Position numbers and translations under genes: made by a program. This document shows, piece after piece, positions 8,186-13,086 of a stretch of DNA of 50,161 nucleotides. Below the pieces are notes generated by a model. The model did no database searches and was not told where the DNA came from. It saw nothing but the letters and a program-made list of their open reading frames with translations. Position 1 is the stretch's first letter. Each line of letters starts with the position of its first letter. Source of the stretch: Pseudomonas laurentiana (GTDB taxonomy: Bacteria > Pseudomonadota > Gammaproteobacteria > Pseudomonadales > Pseudomonadaceae); contig NZ_BMQU01000025.1 of the NCBI RefSeq assembly GCF_014648275.1, positions 1-50,161 of the forward strand. The letters are read 5' to 3'.

Positions 8186-9079
8186 TCAGGCTGGCATGAG
8201 CTGTGCCCTGAGTAAATCACGAAAAGTCTGGATCAATGGTTCACGGCTGCGTCCTCGGCGGATGATCATGGAGAACGGCGCCTGGTAGCCAAAGGTCGCC
8301 GGGGACAAAACCCGCAAATCGCCCTTGTCCACCCACGCCTGGGCATAGTGCTCGGGCAAGTAACCAATGTAGGCACCGGACAACACCAGTATCAGTTGCG
8401 CCTCCATGCTCTCCACCGTTGCCGCACTGTGCTTGAAACCATGGCGAGCCAGTTCCGCCTGGCTCCAATAACCGCGCCCAACCATGCGCTGCTGGGTAAT
8501 CACCTGCTCGGGGATACGCCGCTGCAGGTAGAGCGGATGGCGATTGCTGCAGTACAACCAATGTTGCTCACGGTACAGCGGCTGATACAGCAAGCCACTC
8601 ATGCGTGTGGAAAACGCGCCAATCGCCAGATCCAGGCGGTTGTCCTGCACGCCCAACTGCAGCTCGTAAGGGCTGGAAACCGACAAGTGCAGATGCACCG
8701 CCGGGTGTTCCTGACTGTATGCACCAATGGCCTCTGCCAACGGCAAGGCCCGGTCACCGACCGTAGAATCGATTACCCCCAGGTTCAGCGTCCCACGCAA
8801 CTCGCCCTTGAGTGCTGCAGCGTACTGCTCGAAGCCCTCCATTTCCGCCAGTAAACGCAACGTTTCCTGATGGAACAACTCGCCCTTGCTGGTCAGGCTG
8901 AAGCCGCCACGCCCTCGATGGCACAGCACAATACCGAGTGCGGACTCCAACTGGCTCATGTAAGTGCTGATGGCTGAGGTCGACAGATTCAACTCTTGCT
9001 GGGCATTGGCGAACCCTTGATGACGCACGACGCTGACGAAGATGCGCAACAGTTTCAGGTCGGGCAAGGCATTGGCCAT
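8186..9079 (-). CDS. gbuR: LysR-type regulator, probable GbuR
   Basis: A 297-residue LysR-type regulator with an N-terminal winged helix-turn-helix ([39 protein letters not shown]) and a C-terminal effector-binding domain. It is divergent from the guanidinobutyrase-like gene. In P. aeruginosa gbuR (PA1422) is divergent from gbuA (PA1421) and activates it in response to 4-guanidinobutyrate. The start is uncertain: the frame can begin at a TTG (9112), a GTG (9094) or the ATG at 9079; I chose the ATG, which places the helix-turn-helix at the usual distance. The name is by synteny and needs a binding or mutant test. Confidence 0.75.
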
Positions 9080-9301: not shown

Positions 9302-10252
9302 GTGGACAAGATTCTTCATCAACCGCTGGGCGGCAACGAAATGCCGCGCTTCGGCGGTATCGCCACCATGCTCCGTCTCCCCCACCTGCAAAGCGCTGCC
9401 GGCCTTGATGCCGCTTTTATCGGTATTCCACTGGATATTGGCACCTCATTGCGCTCAGGCACTCGCTTCGGACCGCGAGAGATACGCGCCGAATCCGTAA
9501 TGATCCGCCCCTACAACATGGCAACCGGCGCCGCCCCGTTTGACTCACTGTCGGTGGCCGACATTGGCGATGTGGCAATCAACACCTTCAACCTGCTCGA
9601 CGCCGTGCGGATCATTGAAGAAGCCTACGACCAGATCCTGGAACACAATGTGATTCCGCTGACCATGGGTGGCGACCATACCGTTACGTTGCCAATCCTG
9701 CGTGCCATCCATAAAAAACACGGCAAGGTCGGGCTGGTGCATATCGATGCCCACGCCGACGTCAACGATCACATGTTCGGTGAAAAAATCGCCCACGGCA
9801 CCACCTTCCGCCGCGCGGTCGAAGAAGGCTTGCTGGACTGCGATCGCGTGGTTCAGATCGGTTTGCGCGCACAAGGCTATACCGCAGAAGACTTCAACTG
9901 GAGCCGCAAACAGGGCTTCCGGGTTGTTCAAGCCGAGGAGTGCTGGCACAAGTCGCTGGAGCCACTGATGGCCGAAGTTCGCGAGAAAGTCGGTGGTGGT
10001 CCGGTCTACCTGAGCTTCGATATCGACGGCATCGATCCTGCGTGGGCACCTGGCACCGGCACCCCGGAAATCGGTGGCCTGACCACCATACAGGCCATGG
10101 AAATCGTCCGTGGCTGCCAGGGCCTGGACCTGATCGGCTGCGACCTGGTGGAAGTTTCCCCGCCCTATGACACCACCGGCAACACCTCGTTGCTGGGCGC
10201 CAATCTGCTCTACGAAATGCTGTGCGTATTGCCAGGCGTGGCACGCCGATAG
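9302..10252 (+). CDS. gbuA: Guanidinobutyrase (agmatinase-family ureohydrolase)
   Basis: A 316-residue binuclear manganese ureohydrolase. The metal-ligand motifs are intact: GGDH (H126), DAHAD (D149, H151, D153) and SFDIDGIDP (D240, D242). General annotation would be agmatinase (speB). I prefer guanidinobutyrase, which cleaves 4-guanidinobutyrate to urea and 4-aminobutyrate, because the sequence closely resembles what I remember of P. aeruginosa GbuA and the context (divergent LysR gene, following sodium:solute symporter) is the gbu locus. The start is a GTG with GAAGAGG 7 bases upstream. The symporter gene follows after about 146 bases containing a hairpin, so the two are probably co-transcribed. 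Agmatine activity remains possible. Confidence 0.85.
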   Translation: MDKILHQPLGGNEMPRFGGIATMLRLPHLQSAAGLDAAFIGIPLDIGTSLRSGTRFGPREIRAESVMIRPYNMATGAAPFDSLSVADIGDVAINTFNLLDAVRIIEEAYDQILEHNVIPLTMGGDHTVTLPILRAIHKKHGKVGLVHIDAHADVNDHMFGEKIAHGTTFRRAVEEGLLDCDRVVQIGLRAQGYTAEDFNWSRKQGFRVVQAEECWHKSLEPLMAEVREKVGGGPVYLSFDIDGIDPAWAPGTGTPEIGGLTTIQAMEIVRGCQGLDLIGCDLVEVSPPYDTTGNTSLLGANLLYEMLCVLPGVARR

Positions 10253-10338: not shown

Positions 10339-10358
10339 CGGGCGGCCATGGTCGCCCG
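10339..10358 (+). repeat. Intercistronic hairpin between gbuA and the symporter gene
   Basis: CGGGCG and CGCCCG flank GCCATGGT, giving a stem that can extend through CC/GG. There is no T run, so it looks more like an mRNA processing or stabilising hairpin than a terminator. It would allow unequal expression of gbuA and the transporter. Confidence 0.35.
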
Positions 10359-10398
10359 AGAGGTCGCTCTGACCATAATAAAGACAATCGGAGAACCC

Positions 10399-11778
10399 AT
10401 GGCCCTGGATATTTTCGTTGTACTGATTTATGCCGCCAGCATGCTCACGCTCGGCTGGTATGGGATGCGCCGAGCCAAGACCCACGAAGATTATCTGGTC
10501 GCTGGTCGCAACCTCGGCCCGACCCTGTACATGGGCACCATGGCCACGACCGTACTGGGCGGTGCGTCAACCGTTGGTTCCGTACGCCTTGGCTATGTAC
10601 ATGGCATTTCCGGTTTCTGGCTTTGTGCCGCATTGGGCATGGGCATCATCGCCCTGAACCTGTTCCTGGCCAAACCGCTGTTGCGTCTGCGTATCTTCAC
10701 GGTGACCCAGGTACTTGAGCGCCGCTACAACCCCTTGGCCCGCCAAGCCAGTGCCGCGATCATGCTGGCTTATGCACTGATGATTGGGGTTACCTCTGTC
10801 CTTGCCATCGGCACCGTCCTGGAAGTCCTGCTTGAACTGCCGTTCTGGCTGGCCATTGTGCTCGGCGGGGGCGTGGTCGTGACCTATTCGACCATCGGTG
10901 GCATGTGGTCACTGACCCTGACAGACATCGTCCAGTTCGTGATCAAGACCGTAGGCCTGATGTTCATCCTGCTACCGGTGTGCCTGTACAAGGTCGGAGG
11001 CTGGGATGAGCTGGTAAACACGCTGCCCGCAACCCGTTTCAGCCTTACCACGATAGGCTGGGACACCATCATCACCTACTTCCTGATCTACTTCTTCGGC
11101 ATTCTGATCGGTCAGGATATCTGGCAACGGGTGTTCACCGCGCGCGACGAAAAGGTGGCTCAATATGCCGGTACTACCGCGGGGGTCTACTGCGTGATCT
11201 ATGGCCTGGCCTGCGCCCTGATTGGCATGGCGGCCCATGTGCTGATGCCTGACCTGAGCAATCCCAACAACGCCTTCGCCGCAGTGATCAAGGGCACCCT
11301 GCCCGATGGTATCCGCGGGCTGCTGATGGCCGCCGCCCTCGCCGCGATGATGTCCACCGCCAGTGCTGGTCTGCTGGCAGCCTCCACCACCCTCACCGAA
11401 GACCTCCTGCCGCGACTGCGCAGCGGCAAGCAGTCGAGCCTGGGCGTCAGCCGCCTGTTCACCTGCCTGACCGGTATCGTGGTGCTGGGCATTGCGCTGG
11501 TGGTCAACGACGTGATCAGCGCGCTGACCCTGGCCTATAACCTGCTGGTGGGCGGTATGCTGATTCCGCTGATCGGAGCGATCTACTGGAAGCGTGCAAC
11601 TACTGCCGGCGCCATTACCAGCATGGCACTGGGCTTTGGCACCGCACTGGTATTCATGATCAAGGATGGCCTGGAGGCCAATACCCCCATCTACTACAGT
11701 CTGGCGATCGGCTTGATCAGCTTCATTCTGGTCAGCCTGATGTCCCGCCAACCCGTGGAAGCGACAACATTGACGTAA
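10399..11778 (+). CDS. Sodium:solute symporter (SSS family)
   Basis: A 459-residue inner-membrane symporter with about 12-13 hydrophobic segments. The family features are clear: ALDIFVVLIYAASMLTLGWYGMRRAKTHEDYLVAGRNLG at the N-terminus, the TVLGGASTVGSVRLGYVHGISGFW sodium-site region, and the GLLMAAALAAMMSTASAGLLAASTTLTEDL motif in the second half. The ATG at 10399 is preceded by CGGAG. It lies directly downstream of gbuA, as PA1418 does in the P. aeruginosa gbu locus, so uptake of guanidinobutyrate or a related guanidino compound is the natural inference; the substrate is not proven. A strong bidirectional hairpin follows the stop codon. Confidence 0.88.
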   Translation: MALDIFVVLIYAASMLTLGWYGMRRAKTHEDYLVAGRNLGPTLYMGTMATTVLGGASTVGSVRLGYVHGISGFWLCAALGMGIIALNLFLAKPLLRLRIFTVTQVLERRYNPLARQASAAIMLAYALMIGVTSVLAIGTVLEVLLELPFWLAIVLGGGVVVTYSTIGGMWSLTLTDIVQFVIKTVGLMFILLPVCLYKVGGWDELVNTLPATRFSLTTIGWDTIITYFLIYFFGILIGQDIWQRVFTARDEKVAQYAGTTAGVYCVIYGLACALIGMAAHVLMPDLSNPNNAFAAVIKGTLPDGIRGLLMAAALAAMMSTASAGLLAASTTLTEDLLPRLRSGKQSSLGVSRLFTCLTGIVVLGIALVVNDVISALTLAYNLLVGGMLIPLIGAIYWKRATTAGAITSMALGFGTALVFMIKDGLEANTPIYYSLAIGLISFILVSLMSRQPVEATTLT

Positions 11779-11822
11779 CCTGAACAAACCGTCGCATGCG
11801 TCATGATGCGGCGGTTTTCAGG
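11779..11822. terminator. Bidirectional terminator between the symporter and sicX-like genes
   Basis: The arms AACCGTCGCAT and ATGCGGCGGTT pair (one G-T wobble) around an 8-base loop. The flanking CCTGAA/TTCAGG extends the stem with a small bulge. T runs follow on both strands (GGTTTTC on plus, GGTTTGTTC on minus). The position between two convergent genes fits shared termination. Confidence 0.8.
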
Positions 11823-11838
11823 TCGGCACTGCGCCCGC

Positions 11839-11964
11839 CTACTTGCGCGGCTGGCGTTTGCGTTGCTCCTCATCACTGGGGATCGGAACCGGTTGCAGCG
11901 GTGGCGGAATCAGGCCAAGCGCAACAGCCAGGTCATGTAGCCAGTTATACAGCGCATTTTTCAT
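11839..11964 (-). CDS. sicX: PA1414-like small protein / SicX-type RNA locus
   Basis: A 41-codon ORF: MKNALYNWLHDLAVALGL then IPPPLQPVPIPSDEEQ and a basic tail RKRQPRK. The ribosome site AAGGGGG lies 6 bases before the ATG. It resembles the PA1414 family of Pseudomonas. In P. aeruginosa that locus lies in the same neighbourhood (LysR PA1413 on one side, symporter PA1418 and gbuA on the other) and yields the low-oxygen-induced regulatory RNA SicX. Here an Anr/FNR-type box lies upstream at 12079-12092 and a strong terminator follows, giving a compact unit of about 200 bases. Whether the RNA, the peptide or both act is not shown by the sequence; the name is by similarity and position. Confidence 0.7.
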   Translation of the reverse strand: MKNALYNWLHDLAVALGLIPPPLQPVPIPSDEEQRKRQPRK

Positions 11965-12022
11965 GACATCCCCCTTACGGGTTATCTGGCGTGGCAAAGA
12001 AGTCCTGCGACGCTTCATAGAG

Positions 12023-12028
12023 ATCATA
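12023..12028 (-). promoter_or_regulatory. Candidate -10 element of the sicX-like gene
   Basis: TATGAT on the minus strand matches the -10 consensus in 5 of 6 positions. Its implied start (near 12016) would place the Anr box centre about 70 bases upstream, like FNR class I sites. No good -35 is present, as expected for an activated promoter. I found no good -10 at the alternative class II spacing. Confidence 0.35.
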
Positions 12029-12078
12029 GCCCGATGTCCCTCACTGCGCATCGCTGAATCTGACAAAGAAAACATGGC

Positions 12079-12092
12079 TTGACCTCGATCAA
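12079..12092 (-). promoter_or_regulatory. Anr/FNR box upstream of the sicX-like gene
   Basis: TTGATCGAGGTCAA on the minus strand fits the Anr/FNR consensus TTGAT-N4-(A/G)TCAA exactly. Its position upstream of the PA1414-like gene predicts induction when oxygen is low. It overlaps the stop codon of the upstream LysR gene. Confidence 0.75.
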
Positions 12093-12982
12093 GCGCTGAC
12101 CACACGGCGTTGCGCAGGTTCAAGTCGCGCGCCCTGCTGCAATTCCACCCAGGCACTGAGGTTCGCGCCCAGCATGCCCTTGCGCCACATCAACCAGGTG
12201 GTCGCCTCGTCGAACGGCGATTGCAAACGGTGAACCGCCACGCTCTCACGCCCCGGCAGACTTTCCAGCATGGAGTGTGACATCAGTGCGACACCGGCAC
12301 CGCCAATGACGCAAGCCAGCATGCTGGGGTAGGACTCAATTTCCATCACCCGCCCCATGCTCGCATGATCATGGGCATACCAGGCCTCGAGTCGCATCCG
12401 ATACGAGCAGCCCTGACGAAAGGTGAATACCGCACGCCCTGCCACGTCGCGGGCGCTGCGTACCGGGGGATGATCAGCCTCGGTGATCAACACCAGGGTT
12501 TCATCACACAGCGGCACACCATCCAGGCCCGCCAGGCTCAACGGACCATCGACCAGCGCGGCGTCCAGACGCCCGCTGAGCAAGCCCTCGAGCAGTTCAC
12601 CGCTGGGCGCCGCCTGCACCTGCAAATTAACTGCCGGATAGGCCCGGTGATAACGTGCCAACAAGGCAGGCAAATGAATGGCCGCCGTGCTGTACATGGT
12701 GCCGAGCACAAAATCCCCGGCCGGTTGACCACCCTGTACCGCCGCAAAGGCCTCATCGTGCAAGGCCAGCAGGCGCCCGGCGTAATCCAGCAGCACCTTT
12801 CCTGCCGGCGACAACTGCAAGCGCTGCCGTTCGCGACGAAACAGCTCTACGCCCAATTGTTCCTCAAGTTGACGCAGGCGCGTCGACAGGTTGGACGGCA
12901 CCCGATGCAACTGCTCGGCAGCCCGGGTAACCGATCCCGTCTCGGCAACCGCCTGAAAGATTCTCAGCTGACTGAGCTCCAT
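12089..12982 (-). CDS. LysR-family transcriptional regulator
   Basis: A 297-residue LysR-type regulator: helix-turn-helix LRIFQAVAETGSVTRAAEQLHRVPSNLSTRLRQLEEQLGVELFRRERQRLQLSPAG, then a typical two-lobed effector domain (DFVLGTMYSTAAIHLPALLARYHRAYPAVNLQV). I chose the ATG at 12982 (MELSQLRIF) because AGAGA lies at proper spacing; an ATG two codons earlier is too close to it. It is divergent from the MFS gene at 13087, which is the usual arrangement for a LysR regulator and its target exporter. It may instead correspond to PA1413, beside sicX. The ligand is unknown. Confidence 0.85.
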   Translation of the reverse strand: MELSQLRIFQAVAETGSVTRAAEQLHRVPSNLSTRLRQLEEQLGVELFRRERQRLQLSPAGKVLLDYAGRLLALHDEAFAAVQGGQPAGDFVLGTMYSTAAIHLPALLARYHRAYPAVNLQVQAAPSGELLEGLLSGRLDAALVDGPLSLAGLDGVPLCDETLVLITEADHPPVRSARDVAGRAVFTFRQGCSYRMRLEAWYAHDHASMGRVMEIESYPSMLACVIGGAGVALMSHSMLESLPGRESVAVHRLQSPFDEATTWLMWRKGMLGANLSAWVELQQGARLEPAQRRVVSA

Positions 12983-13086
12983 AGCCATTCTCTAAAAAAG
13001 AACAAGTTCCTCATAATTATTCAATTTCACTGAAAGTCAATGCGCACTAGCCTGACGGTCATCGAACCCTGTACTGGAGACCCGTC

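Follow-up and report, generated by a model that had tools for sequence, protein, structure and literature searches.

The small gene between a LysR regulator and a sodium:solute symporter in the 50,161-nucleotide stretch of Pseudomonas laurentiana DNA analyzed here (the window) is best read as an Anr-controlled, one-gene unit for a 41-residue PA1414 family protein, from which no SicX RNA is made; we give this proposal as a whole a probability of about 0.72. The locus would be a single-gene transcription unit for a conserved protein. When oxygen is scarce, Anr would bind a box ~70 bases upstream of the start and, acting as a class I activator, would recruit RNA polymerase to a TATGAT element. 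The transcript, predicted at ~230 nt, would end at the terminator common to the symporter gene, and a hairpin at the ribosome site may tune translation. The peptide, in which a hydrophobic helix is followed by a proline-rich hinge and a basic tail, would most likely lie on the inner membrane surface and adjust some respiratory or transport function.

The features of the locus are collected in Table 1. The gene order in the window is LysR, small ORF, symporter, gbuA-like gene, and a second LysR, with no intervening genes. Both the 41-codon gene with its strong ribosome site and the bidirectional terminator 3′ of it, as described in an earlier note on this DNA, were confirmed. The terminator is a 12-bp inverted repeat (fold energy of −19.7 kcal/mol on the plus strand and −11.5 on the minus strand) with T-rich tails on both strands; a terminator scan reports it on the minus strand and not on the plus strand. 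A search of the window against Rfam at gathering scores was empty, as was one at E values up to 1 for the 551 bases around the unit, both here and in P. aeruginosa; a Pfam search gave no match.

Table 1. Features of the small-gene locus, with positions in the window
Feature	Position	Strand	Basis or remark
gbuA-like guanidinobutyrase	9302..10252	+	92% identity to copies in G126 and P. aeruginosa L221
Sodium:solute symporter, PA1418-like, convergent neighbor	10348..11778	+	76% identity to P. aeruginosa counterpart
Bidirectional intrinsic terminator, common to small gene and symporter gene	11786..11817	both	Fold and T-rich tails
41-codon ORF, PA1414 family small protein (MKNALYNWLHDLAVALGLIPPPLQPVPIPSDEEQRKRQPRK)	11839..11964 (stop included)	-	NF041729 profile and frame-specific selection
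Ribosome site AAGGGGG	11970..11976	-	Direct reading; ATG five bases further on
Small hairpin CCC-GUAA-GGG(GG), covering the ribosome site	11970..11981	-	Leader comparison
Inferred -10 element TATGAT	12023..12028	-	Inferred start near 12016
Anr/FNR-type box TTGATCGAGGTCAA	12079..12092	-	9/10; center 69.5 upstream of inferred start
LysR regulator, PA1413 orthologue	12089..12988	-	73-74% identity to P. aeruginosa neighbor

Family, neighborhood, and predicted peptide

The peptide scored 77.8 bits against the NCBIfam model NF041729, "PA1414 family protein" (cut-off, 28), with residues 1 to 40 aligned to profile positions 1 to 41 of 43. The match is near full length with no excluding difference, and the model names a family while giving no function. 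The phrase "PA1414 family protein" occurred in no paper of the open-access literature searched; in that literature on PA1414, SicX, and PA14_46160, no title or abstract opening dealt with the protein or with homologues in other species. The earlier note had placed the gene in the position of PA1414, with LysR on one side and the symporter and gbuA on the other, and both synteny and the curated profile bear this out: judged by these two comparisons, the small gene is a syntenic orthologue of P. aeruginosa PA1414. In P. aeruginosa record NZ_CP131792.1 (L221), the orthologue is a 44-amino-acid "PA1414 family protein" with LysR upstream; six genes follow downstream, the fourth being the symporter, and then comes the gbuA counterpart, annotated speB. 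Three genes thus separate PA1414 from the symporter and two separate the symporter from gbuA in P. aeruginosa, whereas none do so in the window. The gbuA product of genome G126 differs at 4 of 319 residues, by our count, from PDB entry 3nio, Guanidinobutyrase, which we take to be a P. aeruginosa protein, and genus g9, to which G126 belongs, was taken as the genus of P. aeruginosa.

Among the best 80 of 384 relatives, all named Pseudomonas loci, LysR adjoins the small gene in 69 and the symporter starts no more than 1.5 kb away in 53; the closest named record in this set, Pseudomonas defluvii WCHP16, has an identical peptide. Of 398 Pseudomonadaceae genomes searched with the profile, 299 carry the family (295 above the cut-off), which is present in 11 of 19 genera. 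Eight of 194 genomes from the order matched, comprising seven Pseudomonadaceae (six above the cut-off) and one from another family, which was weak and below the cut-off. Finding the gene outside P. aeruginosa is therefore not unusual; the family-wide spread does agree with the older role proposed in the earlier note, in that the origin of the gene long predates P. aeruginosa. Within this named family of small proteins, the window gene is an ordinary representative whose variant form lacks the SicX RNA.

For comparison, 181 loci were reduced to 152 distinct leader-plus-ORF sequences and grouped by peptide motif, not taxonomy: 107 WLHD (the window's type, including L004 of the g9 genome G135), 25 AW-type (24 from g9 plus L149 of genus g12), 11 AWMWQ (genus g12), and 9 others (L122 of genus g1 and 8 of other genera). 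L149 was excluded from alignments A3 and A4 (14 rows from 15 distinct sequences) and included in AW-type counts.

A structure model of the peptide has a helix at residues 2 to 15 and a short one at 31 to 36, at low confidence (mean pLDDT, 71.7; pTM, 0.33; pLDDT of 82 for residues 11 to 20). The first part is hydrophobic, the helix is weakly amphipathic (moment, 0.26 to 0.31), and the tail has a net charge of +2. Our best guess is that the peptide may act at low oxygen as a microprotein peripheral to the inner membrane.

Promoter and Anr box

The box had been described as exact but has one mismatch to TTGATNNNNATCAA, and it lies 128 bases upstream of the ORF. Three Anr-type sites with at most one mismatch occur in the window compared with 0.92 expected by chance, so the box alone proves little. 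Its conserved position in relatives counts in its favor: the best box has at least 8 matches in 52 of 107 window's-type relatives, compared to 12 of 107 for a control stretch and 2.9% of shuffles. All but one of these 107 leaders have a −10 match. The distance from the box center to the inferred start is 71.5 in 44 of the 52 relatives with at least 8 matches, and the mean −10 score of the window's type peaks at this same distance (4.39 versus an average of 1.62). The window's own spacing is 2 off this common value, and all these positions rest on the inferred start. Class I FNR-type sites have box centers near −61.5 or −71.5. The earlier note's estimate that the box lies about 60 bases upstream of the best −10 holds for TATGAT; the distance, which that note called unusually far for class II activation, is not odd for class I. 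Just 3′ of the box, 74 of 107 window's-type leaders carry a TTCAGTAA-like element (TTC[AG]G[TA]AA[CT]). In 72 of these it precedes the −10 by 52 bases, and over all 74 the −10 is 60 to 83 bases from the ATG. This element is absent from the window. In P. aeruginosa, a TAAAGT hexamer, in our reading, gives a box-to-start distance of 42.5, close to that of a class II site, and g9 as a whole has an ambiguous −10 distance profile, with top scores at 93.5, 39.5, and 41.5.

The gene may be real and yet not under Anr, the box being a by-product of the LysR stop codon plus chance. We consider this improbable, although it is the best of the alternatives. About one such site per 50-kb window is expected by chance, 55 of 107 window's-type relatives have no box of at least 8 matches, and the TTGA half-site contains the LysR stop (the TGA falls within the first half of the box at 12089 to 12092 in the window and at 9018 to 9021 in P. 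aeruginosa L221). Against this stand the common spacing between box and −10 among relatives and the retention of the box at −155 to −158 in g9 species. These species include three (L143, L144, and L147) in which the upstream gene is a DMT transporter, with a match that ends at −178 to −196. In addition, SicX induction is Anr dependent in P. aeruginosa (PMC10247376). Only one of the nine leaders of other types has a box of at least 8 matches; taken with the 52 of 107, this suggests that Anr control may be patchy, and the single case in nine means that such control may not be ancestral. The genome itself encodes Anr (L241), with the CX2CX5C cluster motif present. A second FNR-type regulator (L242; G000:C16:58969-59193) has the same Cys-cluster motif, CAQCAVRAFC.

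Leader, SicX RNA, and reading frame

All 107 window's-type leaders have a CCC N3-7 GGG arrangement directly 5′ of the ATG. The three C-G pairs of the resulting hairpin are retained in 48 to 49 of the 49 rows of alignment A2, which holds 49 of the 107 WLHD leaders; as the sequence hardly varies, the hairpin has no covariation support. It is possible that the mRNA has a dual function and also regulates other mRNAs in trans in this species group, a reading that draws on the short leader, a predicted 5′ hairpin, and the conserved ribosome-site hairpin, as well as on the P. aeruginosa relative, a working sRNA with ubiUVT as its target (PMC10247376). We regard it as doubtful, however, as no consensus structure was found in the 49 aligned leaders other than the ribosome-site hairpin and there is no target known. 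Dual-function RNAs of the SgrS/SgrT type combine an sRNA with a small protein, as the P. aeruginosa locus may, whereas in the window's unit no sRNA part was found. PhrS, an Anr-controlled sRNA with a short ORF, is similar as a low-oxygen, Anr-linked short RNA, but it belongs to another locus and is likened here by description, not sequence.

The leader plus ORF of G126 was matched by DNA in 24 of 25 g9 genomes. The g9 leader folds as two hairpins, in which 6 of 24 pairs changed on both sides (14 leaders) and 99.1% of cells pair compared to 37 to 50% in slid versions; none of 500 shuffles reached the observed values. All 24 g9 leaders in the AW-type set carry the hairpin 1 loop, GCGGAGAGUGGGACGCC, without a mismatch, and the 12-base core of the SicX loop is present in 24 of 25 g9 genomes. 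A covariance model of the SicX leader (R1) scored 84 to 104 bits in 13 g9 loci, 6 of which are rows of the model, and at most 23 bits elsewhere, in a locus search that covered 61 sources and not all loci. Among 148 family genomes, 16 matched the model, all of them g9 and 8 of them not used to build it. Of the 25 AW-type leaders, three (the two of the P. aeruginosa clade and one other) have 5 T in the 10 bases where the T-rich tail of a terminator would be expected, and the remaining 22 have 2 to 4. Leaders of genus g12 (for example, L017 to L027) have a GGGTGGCC...GGCCACCC hairpin plus a different upstream hairpin; they match the SicX model weakly, at 16 to 23 bits, and are perhaps related. 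One genome grouped in the aeruginosa-type genus, G135, carries a window-type gene (L004, L151) with an 85% identical peptide and a 10/10 Anr box, and the model had no match in these two loci.

The same model had no match in the window (E up to 5) or in the window's own genome (E up to 10). Such a null genome search needs positives, which the 13 g9 loci and the 16 of 148 genomes supply. None of the 107 window's-type leaders has the loop core GAGAGTGGGA. The SicX-equivalent region of the window would be promoter rather than RNA, because it lies upstream of the start, if the inferred start is right. UbiU and UbiV were read as a neighboring pair of U32-family matches, one strong (about 212 to 224 bits) and one weak. 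This arrangement was seen in 5 of 18 genomes searched; ubiUV was not found in the window's genome, which has only two U32-family proteins, neither in the UbiU-UbiV arrangement. With no match to the RNA model and no ubiUV found, the SicX module that the earlier note saw in this genome could not be upheld. That the unit is nevertheless a true base-pairing SicX sRNA with an incidental ORF is highly unlikely: the same genomic position, the Anr-type box, and the short unit suit it, but the negative model searches, the missing loop core, the lack of a ubiUV match in the genome, and synonymous change (pS, 0.60) alongside a conserved peptide all argue against it. On these comparisons, the window's unit is not a SicX RNA.

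The reading frame itself is well supported. For the window's type (105 distinct ORFs), pN/pS is 0.136 in frame but reaches 2.26 and 2.68 in the alternative frames, and the third codon position is about six times more variable than the first two. The corresponding values are 0.321 in frame versus 1.33 and 1.91 out of frame for the aeruginosa-type set (25 ORFs, one from g12) and 0.192 versus 1.23 and 1.38 for the third group (11 ORFs). Median dN/dS is 0.045, 0.236, and 0.139 for the window's type, the aeruginosa-type set, and the third group, respectively. The synonymous sites are thus much changed while the peptide is conserved. The in-frame constraint in the aeruginosa-type set indicates that the peptide is selected in the relatives of P. 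aeruginosa too. The earlier note had suggested a conserved frame from the motifs NWLHDL and LQPVPI, and both are kept in near relatives; the comparison of synonymous with nonsynonymous change that it proposed found constraint in this frame only. By codon comparison, the small ORF is a protein-coding gene under strong purifying selection. A chance ORF without function, a thought prompted by its 41 codons and by the 74 ORFs of at least 30 amino acids that overlap the 6.5-kb stretch, is contradicted by the curated family, the wide spread, and the codon-level selection and can be dismissed.

Implications for sicX in P. aeruginosa

The SicX paper (PMC10247376) reports that no P. aeruginosa gene is expressed more highly than SicX in human chronic infection and that SicX lacks homologues in other species. 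The latter statement follows from a homologue search filter that demanded >90% identity and >90% coverage (PMC10247376). The same text gives PA1414 as 234 bp, with transcripts confined to the 5′ end and an internal terminator, and reports that SicX function survives a start-codon or frameshift change, is lost on synonymous changes in the transcribed part, and is restored by the 5′ part alone (PMC10247376). In the P. aeruginosa record, a length of 234 bp up to the stop is obtained from just one in-frame ATG, GTG, or TTG codon, a GTG that precedes the ATG of the 44-codon ORF by 99 bases. A strong leader hairpin (GGGCGACC...GGTCGCCC stem) spans −57 to −32 relative to this ATG. From these two positions we infer that the published start-codon change sits in the leader; the site of the published frameshift is not given in the available text (PMC10247376). 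The truncated allele, which works, shows that this growth phenotype does not depend on the protein (PMC10247376), and as the published start of PA1414 would lie in the leader, the conserved protein was probably never tested. That SicX works as an RNA is not doubted. Our sequence comparison suggests that SicX forms the leader of a small-protein gene that predates it.

The P. aeruginosa and window loci are alike in their corresponding neighbors, homologous protein, and Anr-type box overlapping the LysR stop. They differ in the two SicX-forming leader hairpins, the box near −42, and the ubiUVT target of P. aeruginosa, none of which was found in the window or its genome. The SicX RNA would be a later development of the aeruginosa-group genus, formed within the leader of the same PA1414 family gene. 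We lean toward a two-layer history of sicX, in which an old oxygen-controlled protein gene came first, its leader became an sRNA in the P. aeruginosa genus, and pairing with ubiUVT came later, perhaps limited to the P. aeruginosa clade. In P. aeruginosa, read-through of the leader hairpin may still allow the conserved protein to be produced, and it may have its own role there.

By the U32 reading, the UbiU-UbiV pair is present in 19 of 25 g9 genomes; the U32 proteins of the remaining six (G158, G008, G100, G135, G076, and G145) are limited to the two others. The SicX leader is retained in five of these six (all but G135), which argues that the loop is kept for something besides ubiUVT. CCCACU, a six-base complement of the SicX loop, occurs in 1 of 19 ubiU leaders, that of G126, where a longer extension (GCGG with CCGC) was seen by eye only. 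A simple run score gave 18.0 for G126 and 20.0 to 23.5 for G068, G150, G107, and G170, with other stretches. With these four genomes ahead of G126, the pairing test gives no confirmation of the use of ubiUVT and no date for it. Whole-length duplex energy between SicX and the ubiU leader was dropped as a measure, being no better than shuffled (z of −1.5 to 2.0 over 19 pairs). An older common target, sought as exact complements of the 12-base loop in the 25 g9 genomes with sicX sites excluded, was not indicated; extra sites were single ones in four g9 genomes, compared to 14 control sites. The ubiU leader of the P. aeruginosa clade, that of G126 (L222), has its own Anr-type box, TTGATCCCGGTCAA, at −107; none of at least 9 matches was found within 300 bases in the 18 other g9 ubiU leaders.

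The interest of the window's gene lies in what its comparison says about sicX itself. The question shifts from the origin of a species-specific RNA to the way in which an old small-protein gene's leader turned into a regulator, and the comparison points to a conserved protein that is testable in harmless Pseudomonas species.
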